DNA of 63,878 nucleotides from a virus, in IMG/VR virus record IMGVR_UViG_3300021378_001715, positions 1-63,878 of that record; one strand, given 5' to 3'. Position numbers and translations under genes: made by a program. Of this stretch, positions 16,593 through 63,878 are shown in pieces. The notes below the pieces were generated by a model. That model was not told the origin of the DNA. It saw only the letters and a program-made list of their open reading frames with translations, and searched no databases. Position 1 is the stretch's first letter; each line of letters starts with the position of its first letter.

Positions 16593-16883
16593 CTATTCAA
16601 TTACGGCTTTAATATCGCCTTCGCTAAGAATAATTAGTTCTTCACCGTCTGCATCAATCTTATCACTACCGGCAAATTGACCAAATACAATAATGTCACC
16701 GACATTAACATCGACTGGAGTAACTTCTCCGTTTTCTAAAACCCTTCCACTGCCGACGGCAATTACTTCTCCTTGGTTAGGTTTTTCTTGTGCTGTACCA
16801 GGTAGGAAAATACCACCTGCTGTTTTCTTTTCTTCTTCCTCACGACGTACGATCACTCGATCGTGTAATGGGCGAATCTTCAT
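16593..16883 (-). CDS. groES: GroES co-chaperonin
   Basis: 96 residues, full length. It begins [14 protein letters not shown], carries the mobile loop [17 protein letters not shown] (about 19-35) that contacts GroEL, and ends with [17 protein letters not shown] precedes the ATG. GroES caps GroEL so that substrates can fold. T4-like phages usually need a modified co-chaperonin (gp31) for capsid folding; this one is a true GroES. No GroEL was seen, so it must work with host GroEL. Confidence 0.95.
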
Positions 16884-17414: not shown

Positions 17415-17599
17415 TATAATTCCTCCGCAATACCTAAAAGTTCTGCTCCGATAAACAACACACCAGCGGCCGCATAACCACCCATGAAAAGAGCAATTCC
17501 TGCTACAATTCTAACCCCACTTTTTACAAGACTAATATAAAAATGTTTCTTGCTTGGGTCTCTAGGTTCTGGTACTGTTACTCTTTCCGGAATAGGCAT
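17414..17599 (-). CDS. Small membrane protein
   Basis: 61 residues: a proline/charge-rich N-terminus ([19 protein letters not shown]), then a hydrophobic stretch from about 28 to 57 (VRIVAGIALFMGGYAAAGVLF). Its ATG overlaps the clpP stop as TAATG, with GGAG upstream, so it is translated together with clpP. Function unknown. Confidence 0.7.
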   Translation of the reverse strand: MPIPERVTVPEPRDPSKKHFYISLVKSGVRIVAGIALFMGGYAAAGVLFIGAELLGIAEEL

Positions 17600-18186
17600 T
17601 ATTTTTTCTCCACAATTTGATCAACTAATCCATAGTCAAGTGCTTCTTGAGCAGACATAAATGTATCACGATCCATGTCTCTTTCAAAGTCTTCGTATGT
17701 CTTACCTTTTGAATTATGTTTAACATACAACTCAGTAAGGATAGTTTTCATTTTAGTTATTTCTTGATATTGAATTTCAATATCACTTTGCATACCGCGT
17801 GAACCACCGCTTGGCTGATGAATCATATGACGAGCATATGGCAACATCTTACGTTTGCCTGGCTCACCTGCTTGAGCAAGGAATGAACCCATTGAACATG
17901 CTTGTCCCATTACAATAGTATGAACAGGCGATTTGATATATTGCATAGTGTCATAAATGCTCATGCCACTTGTAATTACACCGCCCGGACTATTAATATA
18001 AAAATTAATAGGCTTATCAGGATTTTCACTTTCTAAAAATAACATTTGAGCAACAACTAAGTTAGCAACATTATCTTCAACTGGACCATTAAGCATTACA
18101 ATACGGTCTTTAAGTAATCGGCTATAAATGTCATATGAACGTTCGCCACGTGACTCTTGCTCTACTACCATAGGTACTAACGGCAT
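17599..18186 (-). CDS. clpP: ClpP protease subunit
   Basis: 195 residues, full length and close to bacterial ClpP ([21 protein letters not shown]). The catalytic Ser is near 98 in GQACSMGSF, the His near 123 in HMIHQPSGG, and the Asp near 170 in [15 protein letters not shown]. ClpP forms a double heptamer that degrades proteins fed by ClpX or ClpA, including those carrying an ssrA tag. The genome also carries a tmRNA and ClpS, so this subunit may build mixed or phage-only proteases with host ClpX/ClpA. No ClpX was seen. Confidence 0.95.
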
Positions 18187-27405: not shown

Positions 27406-27452
27406 GTATAATATAAAATTATTATAGTTGATCTTACCTCTTGTGTCAACCA

Positions 27453-39294: not shown

Positions 39295-39302
39295 TATTTA
39301 TA
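39295..39302 (-). promoter_or_regulatory. TATAAATA late promoter
   Basis: An exact late box on the minus strand, 28 nt before ATG 39267 and overlapping the stop of the bilin reductase gene. Confidence 0.65.
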
Positions 39303-39990
39303 CTATTTTAGGAAACAGCATGTCTGTGCAGAACTTATCTACATCTTCTTCTGCAAGACCAGGTGTTTTCATAACGTTAGGCGTATGTGGATTTTGTTGC
39401 TGGTTATGACAGTAATAGTTCTGACTTGCTGCAACTATCTCGCAATTACCGTCACCGTCGGATAATGGTACTTCGTCAAACCAAGCATTAAGATTAGCAA
39501 TAGCAATGTCAATAATAGCAACTGCTTCTTCCTCTGTTTTAACATTGCCTGCAGCAAGCATTTTATCTGTAAAAATATTTGTTGCCCATTCAGGTAGTTG
39601 TCTTTGTTTGCTAGGAATAAATTCTTCAACACTTTCTCTGTATCCATCAATCATAGGATGGTCTGGATTAGAACTAGGACTAAAGTCATGGAAGGCTCCA
39701 GTCATTTTGTTTTTGCCTGCAATAACATCAAAGCCGTATATTGGCGCATCATTGTTAAGAACTGGAAAACAACATACATGCATCATCCATAAGCCTCTAG
39801 ACTCACGTGCATCTACAACATCAATATGTGCTCTACGAACACTATCATTTGCCCACACACGATTAATCCAACCATTCTCTGGTTGATTAAAATGTGATAA
39901 CCCTGGTTCTTCTATTTCTTTTGCTCGACTGTCAAAGATGCTTATAATTTCATCTTGGCATTCAATTAACCGGTTCCATATAACGCTCAA
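39298..39990 (-). CDS. Ferredoxin-dependent bilin reductase (PcyA/PcyX-type)
   Basis: 230 residues from a TTG start at 39990 (GGAG upstream; no ATG available). Core family signatures are seen: RRAHIDVVDARESRGLWMMH, PIYGFDVIAG and AFHDFSPSSNPDHPM with the conserved His and Asp, and a C-terminal YYCHNQQQNPHT. The enzyme reduces biliverdin to a phycobilin with electrons from ferredoxin. It overlaps the heme oxygenase gene by 29 nt, so the pair turns heme into a bilin. Phage members of this family include PebS and PcyX. Its sequence is nearest to the PcyA side; a product (phycoerythrobilin?) cannot be assigned from sequence alone. Confidence 0.88.
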   Translation of the reverse strand: MSVIWNRLIECQDEIISIFDSRAKEIEEPGLSHFNQPENGWINRVWANDSVRRAHIDVVDARESRGLWMMHVCCFPVLNNDAPIYGFDVIAGKNKMTGAFHDFSPSSNPDHPMIDGYRESVEEFIPSKQRQLPEWATNIFTDKMLAAGNVKTEEEAVAIIDIAIANLNAWFDEVPLSDGDGNCEIVAASQNYYCHNQQQNPHTPNVMKTPGLAEEDVDKFCTDMLFPKIV

Positions 39991-40530: not shown

Positions 40531-40842
40531 TTACTCTTTCTCTAGTTTAATTTGTAATGGAAAGCCTTGACTTCTACTTTGGTCTTGTGCTTCAAGTGCT
40601 TTCTGTTCTGCTATTTCATAAGTATATATGCCAGCAACGCCTGAACCATCGGTATGAATGGTTAATGTTATTTTTTCAGCATTCTCGTTTGAATGTCTAA
40701 ATATTTCTACTAAAACTTTTATTACCCAATCAATAGGCGTAACATCATCATTCAGTAATACTACTTTAAACTTTGGTGGCTCAGATATTTGTTTAGATAA
40801 TTTCTCATCTATCTTTACATCTAAAATTACTTCTTCGCTCAT
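40531..40842 (-). CDS. clpS: ClpS protease adaptor
   Basis: 103 residues, full length. ClpS signatures are visible: FKVVLLNDDVTPIDWVIKVL, then TIHTDGSGVAGIYTYEIAEQ, and the end LQIKLEKE. It binds ClpA and delivers N-degron substrates, while it slows ssrA-tag degradation by ClpAP. GGAG lies before the ATG. With phage ClpP and tmRNA it forms a set acting on the same host protease. Confidence 0.9.
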   Translation of the reverse strand: MSEEVILDVKIDEKLSKQISEPPKFKVVLLNDDVTPIDWVIKVLVEIFRHSNENAEKITLTIHTDGSGVAGIYTYEIAEQKALEAQDQSRSQGFPLQIKLEKE

Positions 40843-40890: not shown

Positions 40891-41352
40891 TTACTTGCCT
40901 GTTTCGCCTTCAATAGTAAGACCTTCATTGATCTTAATTTTCTTAGGCTGTAGTTCTTCTGGAACTTCACGTACTAGATGAATGTTTAGCATACCTAGTT
41001 CAAGGCCTGCACTTTTCACTTCTACGTGATCAGCAAGTGTGAACTCCCTACGGAAGTTGCGTCCGCCAATACCTTTATGTAGGTAATTAACGTCTTCATC
41101 TCCTTTAGGAGCCGTACCTTCAATTGTTAAAAGTTTGTTATCCTTTTCAATTGAAAGATTATCCATACCAAAGCCGGCAACAGCCAATGAGATCATATAC
41201 TCATCTTCGTTGATTTGTGCAATGTTGTATGGTGGATATCCATTCTTATTAGGGCTATTTTCAAACTGGCGTTCTAGCTCGCTGAAAATTCTATCGAAGC
41301 CGATAGTAGCTCTATGTAGTGATGGGATGTCTAAGGTAGTTAGTCTTGTCAT
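40891..41352 (-). CDS. Hsp20 / IbpA-type small heat-shock protein
   Basis: 153 residues from ATG 41352 with AAAGGAGG upstream. The alpha-crystallin domain (about 38-128) has YMISLAVAGFGMDNLSIEKD, GRNFRREFTLADHVEV and LNIHLVREVPEEL with the IxI-type tail (KIKINEG). It holds unfolding proteins for refolding by other chaperones. Marine T4-like phages often carry one. Confidence 0.9.
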   Translation of the reverse strand: MTRLTTLDIPSLHRATIGFDRIFSELERQFENSPNKNGYPPYNIAQINEDEYMISLAVAGFGMDNLSIEKDNKLLTIEGTAPKGDEDVNYLHKGIGGRNFRREFTLADHVEVKSAGLELGMLNIHLVREVPEELQPKKIKINEGLTIEGETGK

Positions 41353-41450
41353 AATGTTTCCTCCTTTAATAAGCAAGTTAACTATTGAAACCCTTTCGGC
41401 GTTTCAGTTTATTTAAAAATATGTAAGGAGAATCAATCTCCCTACACATT

Positions 41451-44916: not shown

Positions 44917-45198
44917 CTACTTCCTACGTTTAATCTGTGACGGAGGTAACTTACCGTCCATTTCCATTTGACGTTGTTTCTTCATCCAACGAGCTCTGCC
45001 CGCCGCTTTTGCTTTTGCACGTTTTTCGCTAGGCTTTGTGTATTCTTGTCTGTCACGGACTTCTTGAATAATTCCAGCCTCCATAACTTTCTTTTTGAAA
45101 ATTCTTAGTGCTTTATTAAAATCGCCGTTTCTTACTTCAACAGTTAAACCATTTCCAAATGATTGGCTGTTGTCGTTTTTTCTATTGTTTCTTCTCAA
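44917..45198 (-). CDS. rpsU: Ribosomal protein bS21
   Basis: 93 residues from a TTG start with GGAGGAC upstream. The bS21 core is clear: LTVEVRNGDFNKALRIFKKKV, then EYTKPSEKRAKAKAAGRARWM and a basic tail. bS21 sits near the 16S anti-Shine-Dalgarno and affects initiation. Pelagiphages and other phages carry bS21 homologues. It supports a phage strategy of replacing a host initiation component, with IF-1. Confidence 0.9.
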   Translation of the reverse strand: MRRNNRKNDNSQSFGNGLTVEVRNGDFNKALRIFKKKVMEAGIIQEVRDRQEYTKPSEKRAKAKAAGRARWMKKQRQMEMDGKLPPSQIKRRK

Positions 45199-50625: not shown

Positions 50626-50734
50626 TGATTAGTTTCCTTTTATTATTCTTATTAGTGAGCGAGGTGGGATTGTGTTGCTCACATTAATAGTTATCATTTA
50701 TGCACTCTTATTGTGCAAGAGTGAAAGAATAAAA

Positions 50735-50765
50735 GAAAAAGGTGTTACATCTCTGCAACACCTTT
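50735..50765 (-). terminator. Terminator after tmRNA
   Basis: AAAGGTGTT, a 10-nt loop, AACACCTTT and then TTCTTTT on the minus strand. A 9-bp stem closes the tmRNA transcript. Confidence 0.85.
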
Positions 50766-51050
50766 CCTGCTATGTTTGGTAACAAGGTCTAACTACCTCG
50801 TAGTAGCCCTTAGGCTGCTAATGCGAAGTTTTCGTTTGCTTCTATTTGTTTTCTTGCGATAACCGTGCTTGCGCCGGGCAACTCCACTTGTCTATTAACT
50901 ACCAGTCGATCCTAGTTCGACCCCATCAAAAATACATTCCCAGTTTATCAGTCTGTTGCTTCTGCTATACAGTAAGCAGAATGTATTTTTGGTGGAGTCG
51001 CCGGGTACTGCCCCCGGGTCCTGTATAGCGTTTGATTTGCTTCAACGTTA
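50766..51050 (-). ncRNA. ssrA: Permuted two-piece tmRNA (ssrA)
   Basis: Reading the minus strand, the acceptor piece comes first: a T-arm CCGGG-GGCAGTA-CCCGG, then CGACTCC, A and CCA (ending 50990). An intervening loop closed by a perfect 12-bp stem (50979-50990 with 50928-50939) follows. The coding piece starts with GGGGTCG at 50924, pairing with CGACTCC. The tag frame is at 50839-50810: GCA resume codon, tag ANENFALAA, then TAA. A TATAAATA box lies in front and a terminator behind. This is the order found in alphaproteobacterial tmRNAs. Exact mature ends are estimates. It rescues stalled ribosomes and tags products for ClpP-type proteases. Confidence 0.92.
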
Positions 51051-51056
51051 CAGTTA

Positions 51057-51064
51057 TATTTATA
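51057..51064 (-). promoter_or_regulatory. TATAAATA late promoter of the tmRNA
   Basis: An exact T4-type late box on the minus strand, directly in front of the tmRNA acceptor piece with no gene between. It implies expression by phage late transcription. Confidence 0.75.
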
Positions 51065-51083
51065 CAGTCATTTTTTGTGTTTG

Positions 51084-51299
51084 TCAACCACCTGGAACAA
51101 ATTCTTTTGGAGTATACCAATTCTTTTGATTATGTATGCGTCCAAGAAGTTCTTGTATCTCATGCATTTCTTCTTTGAGCTGAGGTGATGTTTCGCCTTG
51201 TGCAATAGCAAGTCCCCTACGTCCTGCTTTGGCTCTTAATGCTTGTTCAATAATCTCTATGTCTCGTACTTCAAGACTAAAATTTTTGTTAGGCTTCAT
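51084..51299 (-). CDS. Conserved small helical phage protein
   Basis: 71 residues (MKPNKNFSLEVRDIEIIEQALRAKAGRRG...), two predicted helices and AAAGGA upstream. It resembles small proteins found in many marine T4-like phages (DIEIIEQALR...EIQELLGRIHNQKNWY). Function unknown. Confidence 0.7.
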   Translation of the reverse strand: MKPNKNFSLEVRDIEIIEQALRAKAGRRGLAIAQGETSPQLKEEMHEIQELLGRIHNQKNWYTPKEFVPGG

Positions 51300-53452: not shown

Positions 53453-53749
53453 TTATGAATCAGCAAAAACGTCAGGACTTCCTGTTTTGGCCGCATTTGC
53501 TCCCCAACTTCCGTGTCCTGTAGTAGCATCAGTTTTTCTATGTACTGCTATGTTATTTGCAAACACAGTTGCTGATCCTGCAGCCGCACCATCACCGCAA
53601 ATAGTAGTATCACCTATTCTTACAGTTGATTCGTTATTAGTAAATACGTCAGGCGATCCTTCATTATAACTAGTTTGATGAAATGGGTTAGGTGTATTAG
53701 AGTCATGTCCTTCATGAACATCTAAATTTTTTCTTACTACTTCTGGCAT
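53453..53749 (-). CDS. PAAR-repeat spike tip protein
   Basis: 98 residues with repeated PAAR-type units: SPDVFTNNESTVRIGDTTICGDG, SATVFANNIAVHRKTDATTGHG, SPDVFADS. PAAR proteins form the sharp metal-tipped cone on the baseplate spike of contractile tails (T4 gp5.4). Its ATG overlaps the stop of the giant structural gene (TAATG), so the two are made together. Confidence 0.85.
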   Translation of the reverse strand: MPEVVRKNLDVHEGHDSNTPNPFHQTSYNEGSPDVFTNNESTVRIGDTTICGDGAAAGSATVFANNIAVHRKTDATTGHGSWGANAAKTGSPDVFADS

Positions 53750-56700
53750 TATATTGATCCTATTGCTATTTCTATTAATCTTACTTCAAACTCTTTTGGA
53801 CAGTCTTCAATTGACTTACCAATAACAGCACCGCCTACCCACGACTCAGTTCTACATGCAACGCCCGGAATTGAACTAGTTACTAGTAAGTCGCCTTTGT
53901 TAATTGGTCCTACTACATAACATGGTACTCGTCCTTTAAGTGCAACAGCAACACCTTTTGCTTCTGAGTTCATTAAGTATGCAGGGTCAGTTGATACAAC
54001 ACCTGCTACTTTAGTTGTTGCTAAACCAGTTGAAGTAGTAACTTCCTGCTCGCCGCCGAACATTACAACAGTACCTGGTCTATAGTTTATATCACTTGAA
54101 TAAACTTCCGCCAAATCCGCATATTCTGCTGATGTCGCTGTACCTTGGAACTTAGTTGTCCTTAGTGTTGCTGAGCCAGGTACATAAGTTAATCCGCCAG
54201 TACCACTACTATGTTCGTCTACAGTTAATTCTTTTAATTGTGCAGCAGAAGTATTATCTGATGATCCGTCAACGAATACTAAATTCCACTCTGCTGTAGA
54301 AGTTTGATTATTTTCAATATAACTTGTATATGATTTATTATCAGTATCAGTCCACGGCACATTGACATACATTCTATCATTGCTGTCTAATTCAATTGCA
54401 TAATAATTAGAAGCACTTGGTGTAGCACCTATTTTAACAAGACCTGCTGTACTATCTGTTGCAATATTATATGTTGTATTATTATCTGTAAATAACGCAT
54501 TTGCTGGTACTGCTGTTTTAACATTATCAAATGCCCAGTCTGAGCTAATTGCTGTAGTTGTTGCTCCATTAGTTGGGGTACTAGATATTGCAAGTTGAGT
54601 ATTATCATTTGGAGATGTAAGTGTTACTACGTAAGGATCTGCGGTTGTTCCAGATCCTGTTGTATTGGTTCCTAATGCTCCTGTAGCCGTTACAAACTTA
54701 ATAAATTTACCTTGACCAATAGTTACATCATCATCGCCACTGTCTCTTAAGGTCCAAGTAGTAAGTTGGTTTGTATTAGTATCTGTAAATAACGCATTTA
54801 CTGGTACTGCTGTCTTAACATTATCAAATGCCCAATTACTTGATATTGCTGATGTAGTTGCTCCATCAACAGGAGTATCGTCTACATCAACTGTAGTATC
54901 AGTTGAGCTAATTATAAATCCGTTAGCATTGTCACCATCAACCTCTATAGTTATATTTGTACCTGCTTCAACTGTTACTAGGTCTGCAGTACCGCTACTA
55001 GGATTAAGTTTAATATCAACTGAGTCATTAGTTGTTAAGTTATCAACTAAACTTAAATCGTAAGTTGTATTGTTGTCAGTTGGGAAAGTGGCTTCTACTT
55101 TAAATGCTGATGCACTTGTTCTAGTTACACTTACGTCTCCTCCGCCACTAATTGTAATATCATCATTGGTGCCATCGCTGTCTGTTAAACGTATTATTGG
55201 ATTGCTGTCATTACCTGCACTTGCTTGTACTACACTTGTTGAATATGTAGTATTGTCGTTAGCACCAGCAGCTGGCATTGTAAGTGTTTTAACATTGACC
55301 GCTGTTATATGACCTCTAGCATTTGATGTAATGCTGTCTATCACATCAAACGTTCCTGCGAATGACAAACTACTACTACCTGTTGTATCGGATCTAGTAA
55401 TATCTGCGTGATCAATTGTAATTGTTTCTGCAGCAGCTTGATTAAGTGTAAATGCTCCGCCTGTCGAAAGGTCAGTGCCTGCTGTAATTGTAATTTCTTC
55501 ATTACTTGGGGCTGTAACAGTAGCACTTCCTACAGTTAGAACATGGCCAAACTCGTCAAAGGTAATTTCATTTACAAATTCTTCAGCGCCAAGATCTACA
55601 TTTGCTATACTAGATGTATCAGCATGTGATACAGTATATGCTGTTCCGTCATCGGCACTAGCGGTAGTAGCAGATATACCGTCACCTGCTGTAATTGTTG
55701 ATGCATACTGACCACTTGTGTCTGTACCGAGTGCAACACTATTGGCTGTAATAGTAGTTGCAAAACTTGCTGTTGCACTACCTAAGTTGGTCATTGTTGC
55801 TGTGCCTGTACCCGTTACGTCACCTGTTAGTGTTACTGTAACTACAGGGTCTACTACATTCTGCAAGTATGACCAGTCTAGATTTCCTTCAAGTGTTCCT
55901 GCTGTAAATTTCTCAGCGCCAACTGTCCATACATCATCGCCTTCATTCCAAATTAATGTTTTGTTAGCAGCATTACCTCTTTCAATTTCAATACCTGAAT
56001 TTTGTGTTGGTGCAACGTTACCTGCAAGATTACTATTAAGTAAAATAATATTATCAGCAAGGTTAATTGTTTCTGTATTAACAGTTGTTGTTGTACCATT
56101 AACAGTTAAGTCACCACCAATAGTTACATTACTACTTGTTTCAAGAGTTGCAATACTTAAGGCGTTTGTCCATTGAGGTGCTGTTCCGTCTGCTTTAACT
56201 TGTAGTACATTTCTAGCACTACCAATGGTTAATTTTGTTAGTGTCTCATTATAGTCTGCTGGTGCGCCTCCTAGTACTGAACCAGCATATAATAAATCAC
56301 CTTGTGCATAATTGATTAAATTAGTTCCGCCTCGTTGTATTGGAACTCCTCTTGATAAGTTAACTGGGTTTAAGTAATAAGCACCTGTTTGATTATCAAG
56401 TTTATCAGCATCAATAACACCACCGTTGCCTGATGCCTTAGTAGTTACTCGTCCATTAGCGTCAATTTCAAAGTGATCAAAGTGGTAACTGGCAACACCT
56501 AATGTTTCTGTTCCTACACTTGGTGCTGCTGGGTTAGTATAACTTGCTTTTTCAATCTTAATGTCTACATTGTTATAAAAATTATCCCCGTTAACATCTG
56601 CACTTGTTAAGGTTATTGGATCGCCTGCTGTAGTATTTGTAATAGACTGTACAGCCGTTGCCCAAGTTTGATCTCCTCTTAAGAATGATTTGTCGTTTGC

Positions 56701-59700
56701 ATTTCCACTGGCAAGTCTAGATGTATCTACTACACCACTAATAATATTTCCTGCATCAATAGTTGTTGTACTTAAACTACTCCAACTTGATTCTAAGTCG
56801 CCACTAGTATTAACATCGTCTACTATGATAACATTTTGTTCTGTTAGTGTTGCATTTACAGCGCCGCCTTGGCTAGTTATATTAACAGGCGATACTGTCA
56901 ATCCAGCAACACTGTCTAGTGCCGCACCTCTTGCTTCGTGTAGTGTAAAACTGTTTAGTGTTACAGATCCAACAAAGAAAAAGTCGCCGCTGTCGACCCC
57001 AGTAGGTGGAGATGATGATTCAAACTTGATCGCATCTCCAGTGGATAGCCCATGGATTGGTACGAAGAAAGTATTAGCATATTGATTAACATTGAACACT
57101 TTAAAGTTGTGTGTTCCGCTACTTGATGATGTTATGTCTACTTTCCCAGCGGCTGTTAAACCGTAATTTGCAAAAAGTTCAATTTCTGTAGTTGTAAGAA
57201 CTTTTGCATAGTATGTAGTATTGTTGAGAAGACCACCTAATGGTGTATTTGCATTACTATCATAATACAACGGATCTCCGTTTTGTAATCCGTGTGCTGA
57301 TTGGAAAACAATTTTGTCATTAATAACATCAACATCTCCGCCACTGCCTGTACTTGTGGCTACGAATGCTTTAATTGACTGTCCTTGCTGTGCTAGTGTA
57401 TCTGTTGGAGGATTGTCATCAACTATAAAGTCTAAATTTATATTACTTGCTGTAAATTGTAATCCTGTATCTGCATTTAGATCAACATATAATCTATTTT
57501 GTATATCAGTTACACCAATGCTTATTGGACTACCACCTGAACGACCACCTACATCTGCATCATTAATTGTAACGTTATCAGATTCAGTATAGAACGACCC
57601 GCCTACTGTAACATCAAAACTAGTAATTGTTCCAGTTGCTCCAACAATGATATTTGCTTTTGCACCAGAACCATTTCCGCCTTGTATGCTTACATTTTCA
57701 TATGTACCTGGTGTAGTATATCCACTGCCTCCTGGTAACGTTGCTACATCAACAGCATTAAGAACACCAACAACATGGCTAGTTACAGTTGCTACCGCTT
57801 TACTTGTTGCACCTTGAATTGGTGTGCTGTTAGAAATTATAGTTGTAAAACTTGGTGTGCCACCATCTTGTAATACTAGGAACTGACTTATTTTGTCTGT
57901 TTTTAAGAAGTAGTTATCATTAATTGAGTTTACTGGTGAAACAATAGTAGGTACACTACTTGCACCTAAATTTCCTGTTCCGCTACTACTAAGAGTGTCT
58001 GTTGTATTAAACGTTCCTGTAATTGTGTTTACTAATTTAAGAGTTGATGTTGTACCACTTTCTTTTACAATACCAGTTGCGCCTGATGTTGCCTGTGTAA
58101 TAGTGTCGCCTGCTGTAACAGTTACAGCACCTGTTAGGTTTAACACAATTTCAGGGTAAGTTTCTACAACAATATCACCTGCACTAATATTTGGAGCAGG
58201 TATATCCTGTGATACAGTTAATCGTCCGCCGTATTCGTCTACAGTGAAACTTTCAAATGCTCCTGTTGGAGGAATAAGATCTTGATTAATTAAACCTTGA
58301 CTGTTAAGTTGAACAACGGCACTTGGTACAGCATTAGTACTTACATTTCTGTCAATGAAGTTTCCTAGTCTATCGTTCATAAACGATTTGACTGCTAACT
58401 GTGTTACAAGTCTTGAATCTAATGCTCCATCAACATCATTGTCGCCAAGGTCTGGATCATTACTAATTGCTGTAACTCTTACACCGCCACTTAGGCTAAG
58501 TGCCAAACTGTCTAATTCACCAATACTAACTTGGTTTCTAAATATGATATTACCAGTTCTGTTAAATGCTACAATAAAGTCACCGATCTTAAAGTCACCA
58601 AGTTCATTAGTACCTGAAGTATATACTCTACCCGGCAAGTCGCTGTATTGTTCAAATGTGTCAACACCTACGCCACCATTCTCTGGTAACGCATTATAGT
58701 CAACACCACTACCGCTATATTCCCAAGTGTGTGCTGATGAGTTTGTAATACTTGGACGATGTAACCATGCTTGATTACCTTGTAGTAAACCAAAACTTTG
58801 TACTTGTCTGTTTTTAGTAGTCTTAACAGCAGCATTAATTGTAATTAAATCTGTTCTATTAACTACATTGCTAACTGTTACAGAACTAACACTAATTTCT
58901 CCTGCATTTATAACAGCACCTGTACTAAAGAAGTTAGTTACTGAAACACTACCTTCTTGTACTTTTTCAACTGAAACTGTTATTATATTGTTATCAAAGT
59001 TTACAACAGTTGCACTAATATTATCACTACCTGATGTTGCTGATATCAATGCTCCTTTAGTAACAGTATAAGAACCTGCTGGCAAATAAACATCTTGGTA
59101 GTTATTATGGCTTGATAAAACTTCGTCAATGAATATTTCTTCAAAGTCATGTAACAGTTGATGAGTTCCTGTGCTTGATCCACCATTAACACCCGTAACA
59201 GGTTTAGTTAGATCAGCATCATGGAATAATTGTAGCGAAGTTGTATTGACAACAGAAACATAGTAAGTTGCTTCGTTAAGTAATCCTACTATTTCTAAAT
59301 TACCATTTTTATTATATTGTACTAGATCACCTGTAGATAATCCATGACTGCCAGTTGTAGCAATACTATTACCCGATGCATTGCCTGCTGTAAACGATAC
59401 TGTTACCCCTCTTGCTGTATCATTATTAAATGTATTAGTAACGTCTTGGCTTGCTAGGTTCATTACTCGCATTACATATTGGTTTACAGTATCACGTTGA
59501 AGTCCTACAATGTTAACATTTTGTACATTGTCTACAACACCAACGTTACCAATAATACCTTTGTCAGTGTCAAATACCCTTGGCGAATAACCTGTTGACC
59601 TTAATGCAAAGTAACCAAAGTTTGTTGCTGAGTTTGTAATAGATAGATAACCACCGTTCTGTGTTAAACACCCTTGTTCTGCAAAAATAACAAAACAACT

Positions 59701-62700
59701 AACCAACTGTGCATATGCATCGTTCATTACACGCCATGCTACACCTCCAAAGGATAGAATAGTAAATGCATTAGCAACCATACTCTTACCTTGTTCAGGC
59801 TGTCCATCTTCTGGTGTTACAGGATTCTCTGCTTCAATAGCATTACCCGGTGTGTTAGGAGTAACAACAAGGTCTCCGTCTATTTCAACACCATTAGCAC
59901 CTAAGAAGCTGATTACTGAACAGTTTTGTAAATATGGTGAAGTAGTTATTAACACTCGTGTGTTAGGCAGGTTTGTGTATCCTGCTCTACTTGTAGCAGA
60001 ATCATTTGGATTATCAAATGCTACAGCAAATCTAAATGCTGCTATAGGTACAGTTCCTGATAGTGCATCTCTAAATGTCATGTTAAACATGTAAGAAGCG
60101 TTACGCACTCTAAACATGTCTTCGTTTTCATTTGCTGGTCTTAAAATTACAGTTCTAATACTGTCGCCTACAATTGAAACATTGTCTGGAATAATTACAG
60201 GGTTATCAAGTATGTACTCGCCTGTTGCAACCATTACTGTAGCTCTGTCTACAACATCTTTAGATACATTGTATACCATGCCTGATGCAATTTGCATAGC
60301 ACGTTTGATAGTTGCTACAGGTGCTGTTACACCGTCATTTGTATCATTACCTTTTTCAGCACTTACATAAACTCTTTTACCACCAAAGATATCACTGTCA
60401 CTAAATCCTAGTTGTCCTAGTCCGTCTGTACTTACTAGTTGTCCTTTAGTTCCGTCTTGTAAAGGTAATATATAATCGTTTAAAGTTAACTTGTCATTTA
60501 GGAACAGCTCACTCCAACGTTTTGTATTTGTACCTAGGTCATATAAATCGTCTGTATCAGGTATAAGATTGCCTTCAAAGTCTGCTGATACTATAATTGA
60601 ATCTGTATCTGCATCACCAATTGTAATGTTTCCACCAATAACTACATTACCAGTAATCTCAGCATTGCCGTCAACTGTTAGTTTGGTCCCGTTGAATGTT
60701 AAGTTTGCACTATCTTCTATCTCTCCGTTAGTGCCTGCTAGTAATACTCGCCCTGCAGTTAAGTCCTCAACTTTTAGTGTTGCAATTTCTGCTGATGTTC
60801 CTACATCAAGTGTAGCAACGTCTATGTCTCCAGGCGTTACGATATTACCTGTTGCAAAGTCCATAGTAACTTTGTTTAGTCCGTCACCAAATTTAAAATC
60901 ACCAGTTTCGTCAATTTGTAATCTTTGTGTTCCTGCTGTATAAAAATCTAAATCATCATTGTCATTACCTGGAGTTGTTTCGCCTTGTACATAAGTGTCA
61001 CCGTCGACATCACTTACTCCACCTAATGAGCCCCATTGATTGGATGATAAGTAACCTTCAAATCTTTGTGTGTCAGTATTGTATTTTATATCACCAACAT
61101 TTCCGCCTACTACTGTTCCCGCTGACGGAACACTTAATCTTGTTGTAGCATCAAGAGTTGCTACTGTTAGCACACTGATATTATCAATGTTATTGCTGTC
61201 CATGTCTAAGTTGCCAGCCATAGCATTAGAACCATTTAGATCTAAGAAGCCCGGTCCTATAATTCCTGGTACACTTGCACCTGCATGGTTAAGCCCTAGT
61301 CTACGATTTACATAATTTCTTACAGCACTTTCTACTGGCACAGTGTCAGTTGCATTATCAGTCATGCCGTCGTCTGTACTGAATTCACTTACGGCAACAC
61401 CACGTTTAAATCCAATACCGTCTAAGTTTGAAAGAGCAATACTTGCGGCAAAAGTAACTGTACCTGTTCCCTGGTCAACTTTAAAATAGTCACCAACTCT
61501 AAAGTTACCGTCTTGGTCAGTTGTTACAAAGAACACACGCCCTTTACCTTCTTCTACTACTTCCCTTGCTTGGTTAGCAGCAATCTCTGGCTTACCATAA
61601 ATTTCTCTTGGGTAACTTGATGTTTGATAACTTCCTGTACCAATGTCAAGTAAATCATGTCCTGTAACTCTAAGTGTACTAATACCTACTGTAATGTCTG
61701 CTTGTCCGCCAGCTGGTAATCCTGCTCGTAGTGTAGGTTTATCTGGATAGCCGCCGAGTGATTTAGTAAGAGCTGGAGTAATATCTATTTCAGCATATGT
61801 TTGTCCTGTTGTGGCTTTATCTCTGTATGCTGTTACTTGGTGTATAGTATCATTAAATCCAAAGATGTATTTAGGTCCAGTTGTAATACCAAGATTAACT
61901 CTTGTTGTTTCGTTTGGATCTAAATCAGTATCAAGTCTGATAGTTGTATCGCCTACTTGTCCTGTTCCAGATGTACTACCTGCTGTATCGTCGACTACTA
62001 ATTTAATATAATCATACGATTCACGCAATGTAATCCTTGCTACGTTATCAGGCAAGCCGGCAACATCATATGCTAGTACACGATATACTTTATCTGGATC
62101 ATCGTCATACTGTAATGCTGTACTTGGTCTAGTAGGGTTAATATCTAATATGTCATCATACTTAATTACTTGGTTGTTACGTAAAACTACAGGAGTTCCG
62201 TCTGGTATAGTAACTTGAACACCAGGGTTACTTGCTTCTCCTGCTGAAATATTAAGTTGATATAATTGAGGTGAAGTTGATTCAACAGCACTAACACTAA
62301 TAACTTCATATCTAGTAAGATAAGTTGGATCGCCTAATACGTTATTTGCTCCACCATGATCAACATCAACTTCACTAATGTTATACGGTGCATATGAAAG
62401 ATTGTCAACATATATAACTGTGCCGCCTTGTATATTTGTGTAGGTAGCATCAGTCATTGCTGTACCAGTTTGAATCATATCATCAGCTAGTACTACATCG
62501 TCACTAACTTCTAGAGGATCACTACCTCTTGCTAATAATGCATAGTCACCGTATGCTGTTGAGCCGTTAAGTGATCTAATATCCGAACCGTTTTCTGCAA
62601 GGTAACTTACGTGACAGTAATAACAGAATACACTAACAGCTTCTGCACGTGAACCGTTTGTAGTATACAGTCCATAACCCAAATCGTTAACCTGTGTAAA

Positions 62701-63878
62701 GTCATTTGACAGCATGGATATATTACCTGCTGTTAATACTTCTATGTTATACGGAAGTGCTGGTAAAGTTTGCCCTGGGTTAATAACTACATAGTGTGCG
62801 TCAGTCCATGGAGTATCTGCTGACAACACGCAACGCCATTGATCTGCAGCAACTCCAACTTTGTCTACTTTGTTAATTTGCCATCTAACACCATCAATAA
62901 AGAAACTTGTCGGAGTTTGTGGTTCTCTGTAAATGTTATCAATAACAATTTCAGTTGTACTGTTTGCTTGTACAATTCTAGCATCTTGGTTACCACAGAA
63001 CCCGTCAACAAACATACCACCTGCAAAACTTACTTTAGGTGCTAGTGATTTACTAAAACTTGAACAAGTTTGTGTATAAGGTGATTTAGTAAGTATCTGA
63101 CCTTCTGGGTCAAGCACTTCCATAAATCCGCCATGTCCTTGAACAGATAGGTTTCTAATAATAGTAGCATCATTCATTAAAAATACATCAAGTGTATCGT
63201 TTTCTTTAGGAGCATTAAATCCTGTACCACGTATAATATTTGCAATGCCGCCTATAAAACTATTTGATATTACTTGTGCATCTGTTGTTAGTAAAGGTGC
63301 TATCTGTGTTGCAAGATAATCAAGCGCCGCAGCAGTTTCTGTTACTTGGTCTGCTGGTAGTTGACCTTGATACATTAATGCATTGTTTAGTGTTTCTAAT
63401 CTGCCACCATCTCGTAAGTCTATTGAAAGAGCATCAACAATATAGCCAACATCACGTTTACACTTATCTACATCATATGTTAAACTAGGATATGTACTTG
63501 TTATAAAAGTAATTACAGCATCTTGAAGTGTTACCTTACTAGCAAACAATGTATTATAGTCGTCAGTGTATGCACCTGGATTGGCAACAAAACTATATAT
63601 TAAGTTAGCACGGTCAGTTAAGTAGTGAGCACCAAACGGACGTTCGCCGACAACATTTGGGTCAAGTTCAAGTTTATCAGCATTACGTTTAAATCTTATC
63701 TCTGAATACGGACTTGCACTTGGTCCAGGTCTTGGTCGAATAATACTTCTTCTAAACTCATCACCTTTAATAGAAACATTGTTTGGAACTTTGATTGGAA
63801 AGTGTTCGTAGTAAATACCTGTTTCAAGTCTAATAGTTATTTCAGGAGATTCAGTTGCTCCTGAATTATAAGTTTGAT
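53749..63878 (-). CDS. Giant virion structural (fibre-like) protein, main part, cut by the right edge
   Basis: The frame is open from the right edge to 53749 (3,375 residues plus stop). The first ATG-like start inside (TTG at 63549) is not the real start, since clear protein sequence (ESPEITIRLETGIYYEHFPI, FRRSIIRPRPGP) continues to the edge. Two modules carry the pattern NVSI(K/V)GD...IRP, one at the edge and one near 60.4 kb (VYVSAEKGNDTNDG). Fibre-type repeats fill the middle. The last 120 residues (ADLAEVYSSDINYRPGTVVM...) match the autoproteolytic peptidase-G2-like ends of marine phage fibres. Joined to 1-1390 it gives 3,839 residues. Likely a large baseplate or fibre protein. Confidence 0.88.
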   Translation of the reverse strand, partial: QTYNSGATESPEITIRLETGIYYEHFPIKVPNNVSIKGDEFRRSIIRPRPGPSASPYSEIRFKRNADKLELDPNVVGERPFGAHYLTDRANLIYSFVANPGAYTDDYNTLFASKVTLQDAVITFITSTYPSLTYDVDKCKRDVGYIVDALSIDLRDGGRLETLNNALMYQGQLPADQVTETAAALDYLATQIAPLLTTDAQVISNSFIGGIANIIRGTGFNAPKENDTLDVFLMNDATIIRNLSVQGHGGFMEVLDPEGQILTKSPYTQTCSSFSKSLAPKVSFAGGMFVDGFCGNQDARIVQANSTTEIVIDNIYREPQTPTSFFIDGVRWQINKVDKVGVAADQWRCVLSADTPWTDAHYVVINPGQTLPALPYNIEVLTAGNISMLSNDFTQVNDLGYGLYTTNGSRAEAVSVFCYYCHVSYLAENGSDIRSLNGSTAYGDYALLARGSDPLEVSDDVVLADDMIQTGTAMTDATYTNIQGGTVIYVDNLSYAPYNISEVDVDHGGANNVLGDPTYLTRYEVISVSAVESTSPQLYQLNISAGEASNPGVQVTIPDGTPVVLRNNQVIKYDDILDINPTRPSTALQYDDDPDKVYRVLAYDVAGLPDNVARITLRESYDYIKLVVDDTAGSTSGTGQVGDTTIRLDTDLDPNETTRVNLGITTGPKYIFGFNDTIHQVTAYRDKATTGQTYAEIDITPALTKSLGGYPDKPTLRAGLPAGGQADITVGISTLRVTGHDLLDIGTGSYQTSSYPREIYGKPEIAANQAREVVEEGKGRVFFVTTDQDGNFRVGDYFKVDQGTGTVTFAASIALSNLDGIGFKRGVAVSEFSTDDGMTDNATDTVPVESAVRNYVNRRLGLNHAGASVPGIIGPGFLDLNGSNAMAGNLDMDSNNIDNISVLTVATLDATTRLSVPSAGTVVGGNVGDIKYNTDTQRFEGYLSSNQWGSLGGVSDVDGDTYVQGETTPGNDNDDLDFYTAGTQRLQIDETGDFKFGDGLNKVTMDFATGNIVTPGDIDVATLDVGTSAEIATLKVEDLTAGRVLLAGTNGEIEDSANLTFNGTKLTVDGNAEITGNVVIGGNITIGDADTDSIIVSADFEGNLIPDTDDLYDLGTNTKRWSELFLNDKLTLNDYILPLQDGTKGQLVSTDGLGQLGFSDSDIFGGKRVYVSAEKGNDTNDGVTAPVATIKRAMQIASGMVYNVSKDVVDRATVMVATGEYILDNPVIIPDNVSIVGDSIRTVILRPANENEDMFRVRNASYMFNMTFRDALSGTVPIAAFRFAVAFDNPNDSATSRAGYTNLPNTRVLITTSPYLQNCSVISFLGANGVEIDGDLVVTPNTPGNAIEAENPVTPEDGQPEQGKSMVANAFTILSFGGVAWRVMNDAYAQLVSCFVIFAEQGCLTQNGGYLSITNSATNFGYFALRSTGYSPRVFDTDKGIIGNVGVVDNVQNVNIVGLQRDTVNQYVMRVMNLASQDVTNTFNNDTARGVTVSFTAGNASGNSIATTGSHGLSTGDLVQYNKNGNLEIVGLLNEATYYVSVVNTTSLQLFHDADLTKPVTGVNGGSSTGTHQLLHDFEEIFIDEVLSSHNNYQDVYLPAGSYTVTKGALISATSGSDNISATVVNFDNNIITVSVEKVQEGSVSVTNFFSTGAVINAGEISVSSVTVSNVVNRTDLITINAAVKTTKNRQVQSFGLLQGNQAWLHRPSITNSSAHTWEYSGSGVDYNALPENGGVGVDTFEQYSDLPGRVYTSGTNELGDFKIGDFIVAFNRTGNIIFRNQVSIGELDSLALSLSGGVRVTAISNDPDLGDNDVDGALDSRLVTQLAVKSFMNDRLGNFIDRNVSTNAVPSAVVQLNSQGLINQDLIPPTGAFESFTVDEYGGRLTVSQDIPAPNISAGDIVVETYPEIVLNLTGAVTVTAGDTITQATSGATGIVKESGTTSTLKLVNTITGTFNTTDTLSSSGTGNLGASSVPTIVSPVNSINDNYFLKTDKISQFLVLQDGGTPSFTTIISNSTPIQGATSKAVATVTSHVVGVLNAVDVATLPGGSGYTTPGTYENVSIQGGNGSGAKANIIVGATGTITSFDVTVGGSFYTESDNVTINDADVGGRSGGSPISIGVTDIQNRLYVDLNADTGLQFTASNINLDFIVDDNPPTDTLAQQGQSIKAFVATSTGSGGDVDVINDKIVFQSAHGLQNGDPLYYDSNANTPLGGLLNNTTYYAKVLTTTEIELFANYGLTAAGKVDITSSSSGTHNFKVFNVNQYANTFFVPIHGLSTGDAIKFESSSPPTGVDSGDFFFVGSVTLNSFTLHEARGAALDSVAGLTVSPVNITSQGGAVNATLTEQNVIIVDDVNTSGDLESSWSSLSTTTIDAGNIISGVVDTSRLASGNANDKSFLRGDQTWATAVQSITNTTAGDPITLTSADVNGDNFYNNVDIKIEKASYTNPAAPSVGTETLGVASYHFDHFEIDANGRVTTKASGNGGVIDADKLDNQTGAYYLNPVNLSRGVPIQRGGTNLINYAQGDLLYAGSVLGGAPADYNETLTKLTIGSARNVLQVKADGTAPQWTNALSIATLETSSNVTIGGDLTVNGTTTTVNTETINLADNIILLNSNLAGNVAPTQNSGIEIERGNAANKTLIWNEGDDVWTVGAEKFTAGTLEGNLDWSYLQNVVDPVVTVTLTGDVTGTGTATMTNLGSATASFATTITANSVALGTDTSGQYASTITAGDGISATTASADDGTAYTVSHADTSSIANVDLGAEEFVNEITFDEFGHVLTVGSATVTAPSNEEITITAGTDLSTGGAFTLNQAAAETITIDHADITRSDTTGSSSLSFAGTFDVIDSITSNARGHITAVNVKTLTMPAAGANDNTTYSTSVVQASAGNDSNPIIRLTDSDGTNDDITISGGGDVSVTRTSASAFKVEATFPTDNNTTYDLSLVDNLTTNDSVDIKLNPSSGTADLVTVEAGTNITIEVDGDNANGFIISSTDTTVDVDDTPVDGATTSAISSNWAFDNVKTAVPVNALFTDTNTNQLTTWTLRDSGDDDVTIGQGKFIKFVTATGALGTNTTGSGTTADPYVVTLTSPNDNTQLAISSTPTNGATTTAISSDWAFDNVKTAVPANALFTDNNTTYNIATDSTAGLVKIGATPSASNYYAIELDSNDRMYVNVPWTDTDNKSYTSYIENNQTSTAEWNLVFVDGSSDNTSAAQLKELTVDEHSSGTGGLTYVPGSATLRTTKFQGTATSAEYADLAEVYSSDINYRPGTVVMFGGEQEVTTSTGLATTKVAGVVSTDPAYLMNSEAKGVAVALKGRVPCYVVGPINKGDLLVTSSIPGVACRTESWVGGAVIGKSIEDCPKEFEVRLIEIAIGSI
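54484..54567 (-). repeat. Direct repeat copy 1 in fibre gene
   Basis: An 84-nt copy encoding a segment of the type ISSDWAFDNVKTAVPANALF. It closely resembles the copy 297 nt away at 54781-54864. Confidence 0.75.
54781..54864 (-). repeat. Direct repeat copy 2 in fibre gene
   Basis: The second 84-nt copy, encoding ISSNWAFDNVKTAVPVNALF. Offset from copy 1 is 297 nt, exactly 99 codons, so it is an in-frame tandem domain. Confidence 0.75.

Follow-up and report, generated by a model that had tools for sequence, protein, structure and literature searches.

A permuted two-piece tmRNA gene with a putative composite early/late promoter in a Melnitz-like marine phage

The stretch of viral DNA analysed here (63,878 nucleotides, the window) carries on its minus strand, at about 51051-50766, a complete permuted two-piece tmRNA of the alphaproteobacterial type. 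It is likely, at odds of roughly two in three, that this is a phage ssrA gene forming a unit of its own, that it is read from a composite promoter made of an early sigma70-type element and a late box, and that it serves in ribosome rescue together with the SmpB of the host. The window phage is a Melnitz/pelagimyophage-like marine phage: 29 of its reading frames match Melnitz, including a syntenic curli block, and the cyclase shares 65.6% identity with its Melnitz counterpart and 46% with the one in HTVC008M.

The anatomy of the RNA was confirmed by covariance search (Rfam cmscan), in which the permuted tmRNA model RF04321 (tmRNA_permuted) matched 51051-50810 (-) with 100.3 bits (gathering 47) and RF01849 (alpha_tmRNA) matched with 88.3 bits (gathering 50), both over the full model and across the whole tRNA-like domain in permuted order. 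A first interpretation made from the letters alone (the sequence-only reading) had proposed such a tmRNA with a 12-bp closed intervening loop, the tag ANENFALAA and a terminator behind it, and all of these were recovered (Table 1). ARAGORN run on the window missed the tmRNA. The acceptor piece has the alpha-type T loop GGCAGUA and ends in an encoded CCACCA at 50990, the coding piece begins with GGGGUCG at 50924, and the acceptor stem GGGGUCG/CGACUCC is paired at 7/7 positions with G3:U70 present. A tally of G3:U70 across the viral set was discarded because the search pattern itself partly imposes this pair. The whole precursor folds with z = -5.0, and the acceptor stem and loop region, with its perfect closing stem, with z = -8.7. 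The tag frame has a stop codon and a hydrophobic C-terminus. Promoter, permuted tmRNA and terminator together span 51087 to about 50730 on the minus strand as a complete transcription unit, and the gene can be called a functional-looking phage ssrA gene.

Table 1. Coordinates of the tmRNA unit, of other genes in the window and of protein genes inside intervening segments of other phage tmRNAs.
Feature	Position	Strand	Basis and remarks
Sigma70-type -35 TTGACA	51082..51087	-	Sequence; immediately after or overlapping the upstream ORF's stop codon
TATAAATA box	51057..51064	-	TATAAA as sigma70-type -10, 17 bp from the -35; also a perfect T4-type late box
tmRNA acceptor piece	50990..51051	-	tRNA-like 3' part; RF04321 and RF01849
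Intervening segment	50925..50989	-	65 bases; closed by 12-bp stem; GAU directly before coding piece
tmRNA coding piece (predicted extent)	50767..50924	-	RF04321/RF01849 alignments
Tag frame ANENFALAA and stop UAA	50810..50839	-	GCAAACGAAAACTTCGCATTAGCAGCCTAA; RF04321 alignment agrees
Intrinsic terminator	50730..50767	-	14-bp hairpin and U-run; sequence and folding
GroES (Cpn10) gene	16593-16883	-	Window
ClpP protease gene	17599..18186	-	PF00574, 262.5 bits
Ferredoxin-dependent bilin reductase domain	39298-39990	-	PF05996, 59 bits
ClpS adaptor gene	40531..40842	-	PF02617, 97.8 bits at 40549-40782
Hsp20 gene	40891-41376	-	Window
Ribosomal protein S21-like gene	44917-45198	-	Window
62-aa intervening-segment gene	L024:244-429	-	63% identical to L338 protein
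62-aa intervening-segment gene	L338:1650-1835	-	63% identical to L024 protein
41-aa intervening-segment gene	L123:4844-4966	+	Homologue free-standing in G003
41-aa intervening-segment gene	L313:13001-13123	+	Homologue free-standing in G003

The sequence-only reading placed the gene under a T4-type late promoter, which is correct as far as the box goes: a perfect TATAAATA lies 5 bp ahead of 51051, the first model position and predicted start region. It does not hold as a late-only promoter, because TTGACA stands exactly 17 bp upstream and the box therefore doubles as the -10 of a sigma70 promoter close to consensus (TTGACA-N17-TATAAA, the -10 being one mismatch off the consensus TATAAT). The whole motif TTGACA-N17-TATAAATA has a single perfect match within the window, and TATAAT is the usual ending of the window's other sigma70 sites, the tRNA-Arg promoter at 27449 among them. 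The box as such was found seven times in the window versus 9.6 copies expected by shuffling, which is chance level, so the box alone is no evidence and its count was rejected as a stand-alone argument. A second composite promoter, TTGACA-N17-TATTATAAATA at 15671-15638 (-), precedes a reading frame of about 19 codons, itself upstream of tRNA-Trp and tRNA-Ala.

Viral permuted tmRNAs were collected through their T-arm pattern, and the promoter was not used for selection; one such pattern gave at least 120 matches in IMG/VR. Among the matches listed, TATAAATA was present 65-82 bases ahead of the CCA end in 78/124 upstreams, and 45 of these 78 had TTGAC exactly 17 bp upstream of the box. Sigma70-type sites beside a viral permuted tmRNA overlapped the box in 49/59 cases versus 5/265 for the other sigma70 sites of the same loci, again among the matches listed (Fisher 4e-42, redundant loci included); the tmRNA loci are related to each other, and the counts are thus not independent events. 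When reduced to 99 non-redundant upstreams among the matches listed, 57 had the box and 41 of the 57 also a sigma70-type site, the two being offset by 0 (about 30), +3, +5, +10 or +12. A scan starting from the composite motif found 112 distinct TTGACA-N17-TATAAATA sites in IMG/VR, 26 of which precede a permuted-tmRNA-like CCA end (full tmRNA pattern in 13, a T-arm-like CCA end alone in another 13), and for the extended -10 control TTGACA-N14-TGNTATAATA the corresponding number was 0/136. Unlike the window gene, plasmid-borne alphaproteobacterial ssrA genes, comparators that came from blastn of the window tmRNA against plasmids as short T-arm matches only, carry neither the TATAAATA box nor TTGACA-N17-TATAAATA. 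These comparative data favour a composite early/late promoter. The same motif also heads a second recurrent class, in which a short leader hairpin (TGTAGATGCC...GGTCTACA) comes before a protein gene's ribosome-binding site and start codon (L262, L268, L271, L276, L279, L284, L288, L304, L314, L333 and L363).

Of the tmRNA-bearing records that also have gp23, the T4-type capsid gene, 15 could be scored and 10 had the box, counting one NATAAATA form; it was detected in 0/5 of the non-T4 tmRNA-bearing isolates, which are without gp23 or gp55 (RcXuper, RcSimone-Hastad, DSS3P8, Cp1R7A-A1 and RcRudolph). T4-like carriers without a box include L046, L054, L078 and G027. A gp55-type late sigma was found in Melnitz, HTVC008M and many tmRNA carriers; neither gp55 nor gp23 was recognised within the 64-kb window, so it is from the relatives that we infer the late machinery and with it the late half of the composite promoter. 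Early and late elements before one gene, as in the window, are also seen in RB49, S-PM2 and Syn9, where such overlaps have been put forward as a 'middle' mode, but the genes reported there are protein genes under MotA control in T4 and not tmRNA genes (PMC2984593). Taking the comparative promoter pattern and this proposed mode together, the window tmRNA gene is probably transcribed from early through late infection and not late only.

The promoter could instead be a purely early sigma70 promoter, in which TATAAATA is the inherited -10 variant of the gene and is not used by the phage late polymerase. TATAAA could be a merely tolerated -10, the box is not above chance in the window, and the perfect -35 and the 17-bp spacer are kept in L213, L217 and Melnitz (L210) though the spacer sequence has diverged; in Melnitz the tmRNA promoter was published as early (PMC9004378). 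We consider this explanation unlikely, if still worth keeping in sight, as the other TTGACA promoters in the same loci favour TATAAT (85/186, among the matches listed) and almost never use TATAAATA, the box is kept without a -35 in some carriers, and the non-T4 phages are without it. In addition, the -10 and the late box are distinct, merely overlapping elements in some lineages, for example TATTATAAATA and TATAATATAAATA, with offsets of 3, 5, 10 and 12, and given several distinct overlap geometries a single odd -10 is not an adequate explanation. The original proposal of a purely late T4-type promoter with a coincidental TTGACA is very improbable: the perfect box does stand at a fixed distance from the gene and some relatives have it with no clear -35, but the 17-bp TTGACA spacing is unnecessary for T4 late promoters and yet recurs in the 45 boxed upstreams counted above and in Melnitz.

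The composite promoter thus remains the preferred reading, and the tmRNA behind it belongs to a known kind, as can be judged from the Melnitz paper and from the entries of the tmRNA database, which holds 79 phage sequences (PMC11915505). Two-piece tmRNAs of phages have been described before and are common among marine viruses; tmRNA was found in 402 of 18,146 phage genomes, with 53 two-piece forms, of which 50 were marine or aquatic (PMC9004378). With these figures and the IMG/VR matches at hand, the supposed rarity of phage tmRNAs is not supported, and a T4-type late box before a permuted tmRNA is not unique to the window either. Melnitz, a Methylophilales phage (MZ577095; PMC9004378), is like the window phage a T4-like marine myophage with a permuted alpha-type tmRNA, TTGACA-N17-TATAAATA upstream of it, a related cyclase and a common curli operon, but its tmRNA belongs to a separate clade, has the tag ANDNYVPVDYALAA, is followed by a glutamine riboswitch and lies in another gene neighbourhood. 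The publication placed this two-piece tmRNA behind an early promoter with the late half unreported, and the composite reading extends that early-only reading. The Pelagibacter phage HTVC008M (KC465899) is likewise T4-like, with an RF04321 match of 90.6 bits and related cyclase and curli genes, but no promoter of its own was seen for the tmRNA, which overlaps the end of the upstream ORF. The two-piece ssrA of Alphaproteobacteria (RF01849) resembles the window gene in gene order, T loop, acceptor stem and style of the tag.

The comparison with SAR11 and other alphaproteobacterial ssrA genes that had been suggested at the outset was made in part, by a tree of 97 rows on a short alignment of about 170 bases with SAR11 ssrA left out. 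In this tree the window tmRNA falls in an all-viral clade (support 97/88 for 18 rows and 97/92 for 35 rows), apart from Melnitz, HTVC008M and the host copies. A serine hydroxymethyltransferase-like (SHMT-like) gene, annotated 'methyltransferase' by PHROGs, adjoins the tmRNA, and five near relatives reached via this gene (G001-G005) have a permuted tmRNA at the same place. Other tmRNA types were seen in records sharing the SHMT-like gene, namely standard one-piece tmRNAs in L219/L225 (G006:10948-11294) and G017 (L224, G017:75049-75438) and a betaproteobacterial-type permuted tmRNA in G027 (L212). A search for the host through the acceptor 5'-part pattern in bacterial genomes returned one Acidobacteriaceae contig with no tmRNA match there, and this candidate was rejected. 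Permuted tmRNAs have been overlooked in several deposited phage genomes: they are unannotated in OP186293, MW677525, KT870145, MT188704, OP009285 and KC465899, and in RcRudolph the hypothetical protein RCRUDOLPH_61 is annotated across one. A GOLLD RNA (L004:713-1146, 150.7 bits) directly precedes the permuted tmRNA of the Roseobacter phage DSS3P8.

In trans-translation, RNase P and 3' processing enzymes yield the two pieces of the RNA, AlaRS charges the G3:U70 stem, SmpB delivers the tmRNA and the tag directs proteolysis. From this scheme we infer the processing, charging, timing of expression and benefit of the window tmRNA. Early in infection the host sigma70 RNA polymerase would read TTGACA-N17-TATAAA, and later a phage T4-type late polymerase with a gp55-type sigma would read the overlapping TATAAATA, the transcript starting within a few bases of 51051 with both polymerases. 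The closing stem would then join both halves of the acceptor stem in the precursor, the intervening segment would be cut out by the RNase P and 3' processing enzymes of the host, and the acceptor would be charged by host AlaRS. SmpB was absent from 19/19 phage records tested, and host SmpB would therefore serve, carrying the charged tmRNA to stalled ribosomes, where stalled chains would receive ANENFALAA and go to ClpXP-type proteases. That the tmRNA is instead decaying or a decoy, captured from a host and either without a role in trans-translation or blocking host tmRNA, has very little to commend it although phage DS6A makes a tag-less tmRNA-like RNA that inhibits tmRNA (PMC11915505) and a phage SmpB is absent, as the G3:U70 acceptor stem, the tag with its stop and the terminator are all intact, LAA-type tags are kept in 61/75 tags read from viral permuted tmRNAs among the matches listed, and the window tmRNA sits inside the all-viral clade. 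Should the composite promoter act in this way, the phages would be paying for ribosome rescue across the host-to-phage transcription switch, in contrast to the window's tRNA-Arg gene with its plain early-type promoter, and the reason why phages carry tmRNA could be tested directly.

A broader proposal, to which we would give somewhat less than even odds, is that T4-like marine phages carry their permuted tmRNA genes as stand-alone RNA cassettes, each with a purpose-built composite promoter, a host sigma70 -35 joined to the phage late box, that keeps rescue on throughout infection, and that in some of these phages the excised segment also encodes a small protein whose ribosome-binding site lies within the closing stem. 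The closing stem is kept as pairing and not as sequence, with a mean helix of 9.0 bp versus 4.0 for mismatched halves in 67 viral tmRNAs with loops of at least 28 bases among the matches listed. In L129 and L215 the segment is wholly different from that of the window and has its own closing stem, and the acceptor and coding pieces are almost unchanged (in L129, 74/75 and 150/150 positions identical to the window, respectively). Four phage permuted tmRNAs were observed to hold a small protein gene in the intervening segment, the proteins forming two families (62 aa and 41 aa); all four are full permuted tmRNAs by Rfam and all have an AAGG-type ribosome-binding sequence in the 5' strand of the closing stem (Table 1). 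The small-protein frames of L024 and L338 stop at the conserved TGA that immediately precedes the coding piece, and a Melnitz homologue of the 62-aa protein (52%) is a free-standing gene just upstream of the Melnitz tmRNA. The intervening segment of the window has no such reading frame. At the other extreme of length, L218 (G044:32900-33094) is a permuted tmRNA with an intervening segment of only 4 bases (CGAT).

The ClpP and ClpS genes noted beforehand in the same sequence were verified by their Pfam matches (Table 1). Beside them, the nine tRNAs and the tmRNA, the window has the S21-like, GroES and Hsp20 genes as a translation and proteostasis set, which fits a phage investing in these functions. 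A reading frame that runs for at least 3375 codons and is still open where the window ends occupies 53749-63876 (-) and has only weak similarity to a protein of G007.
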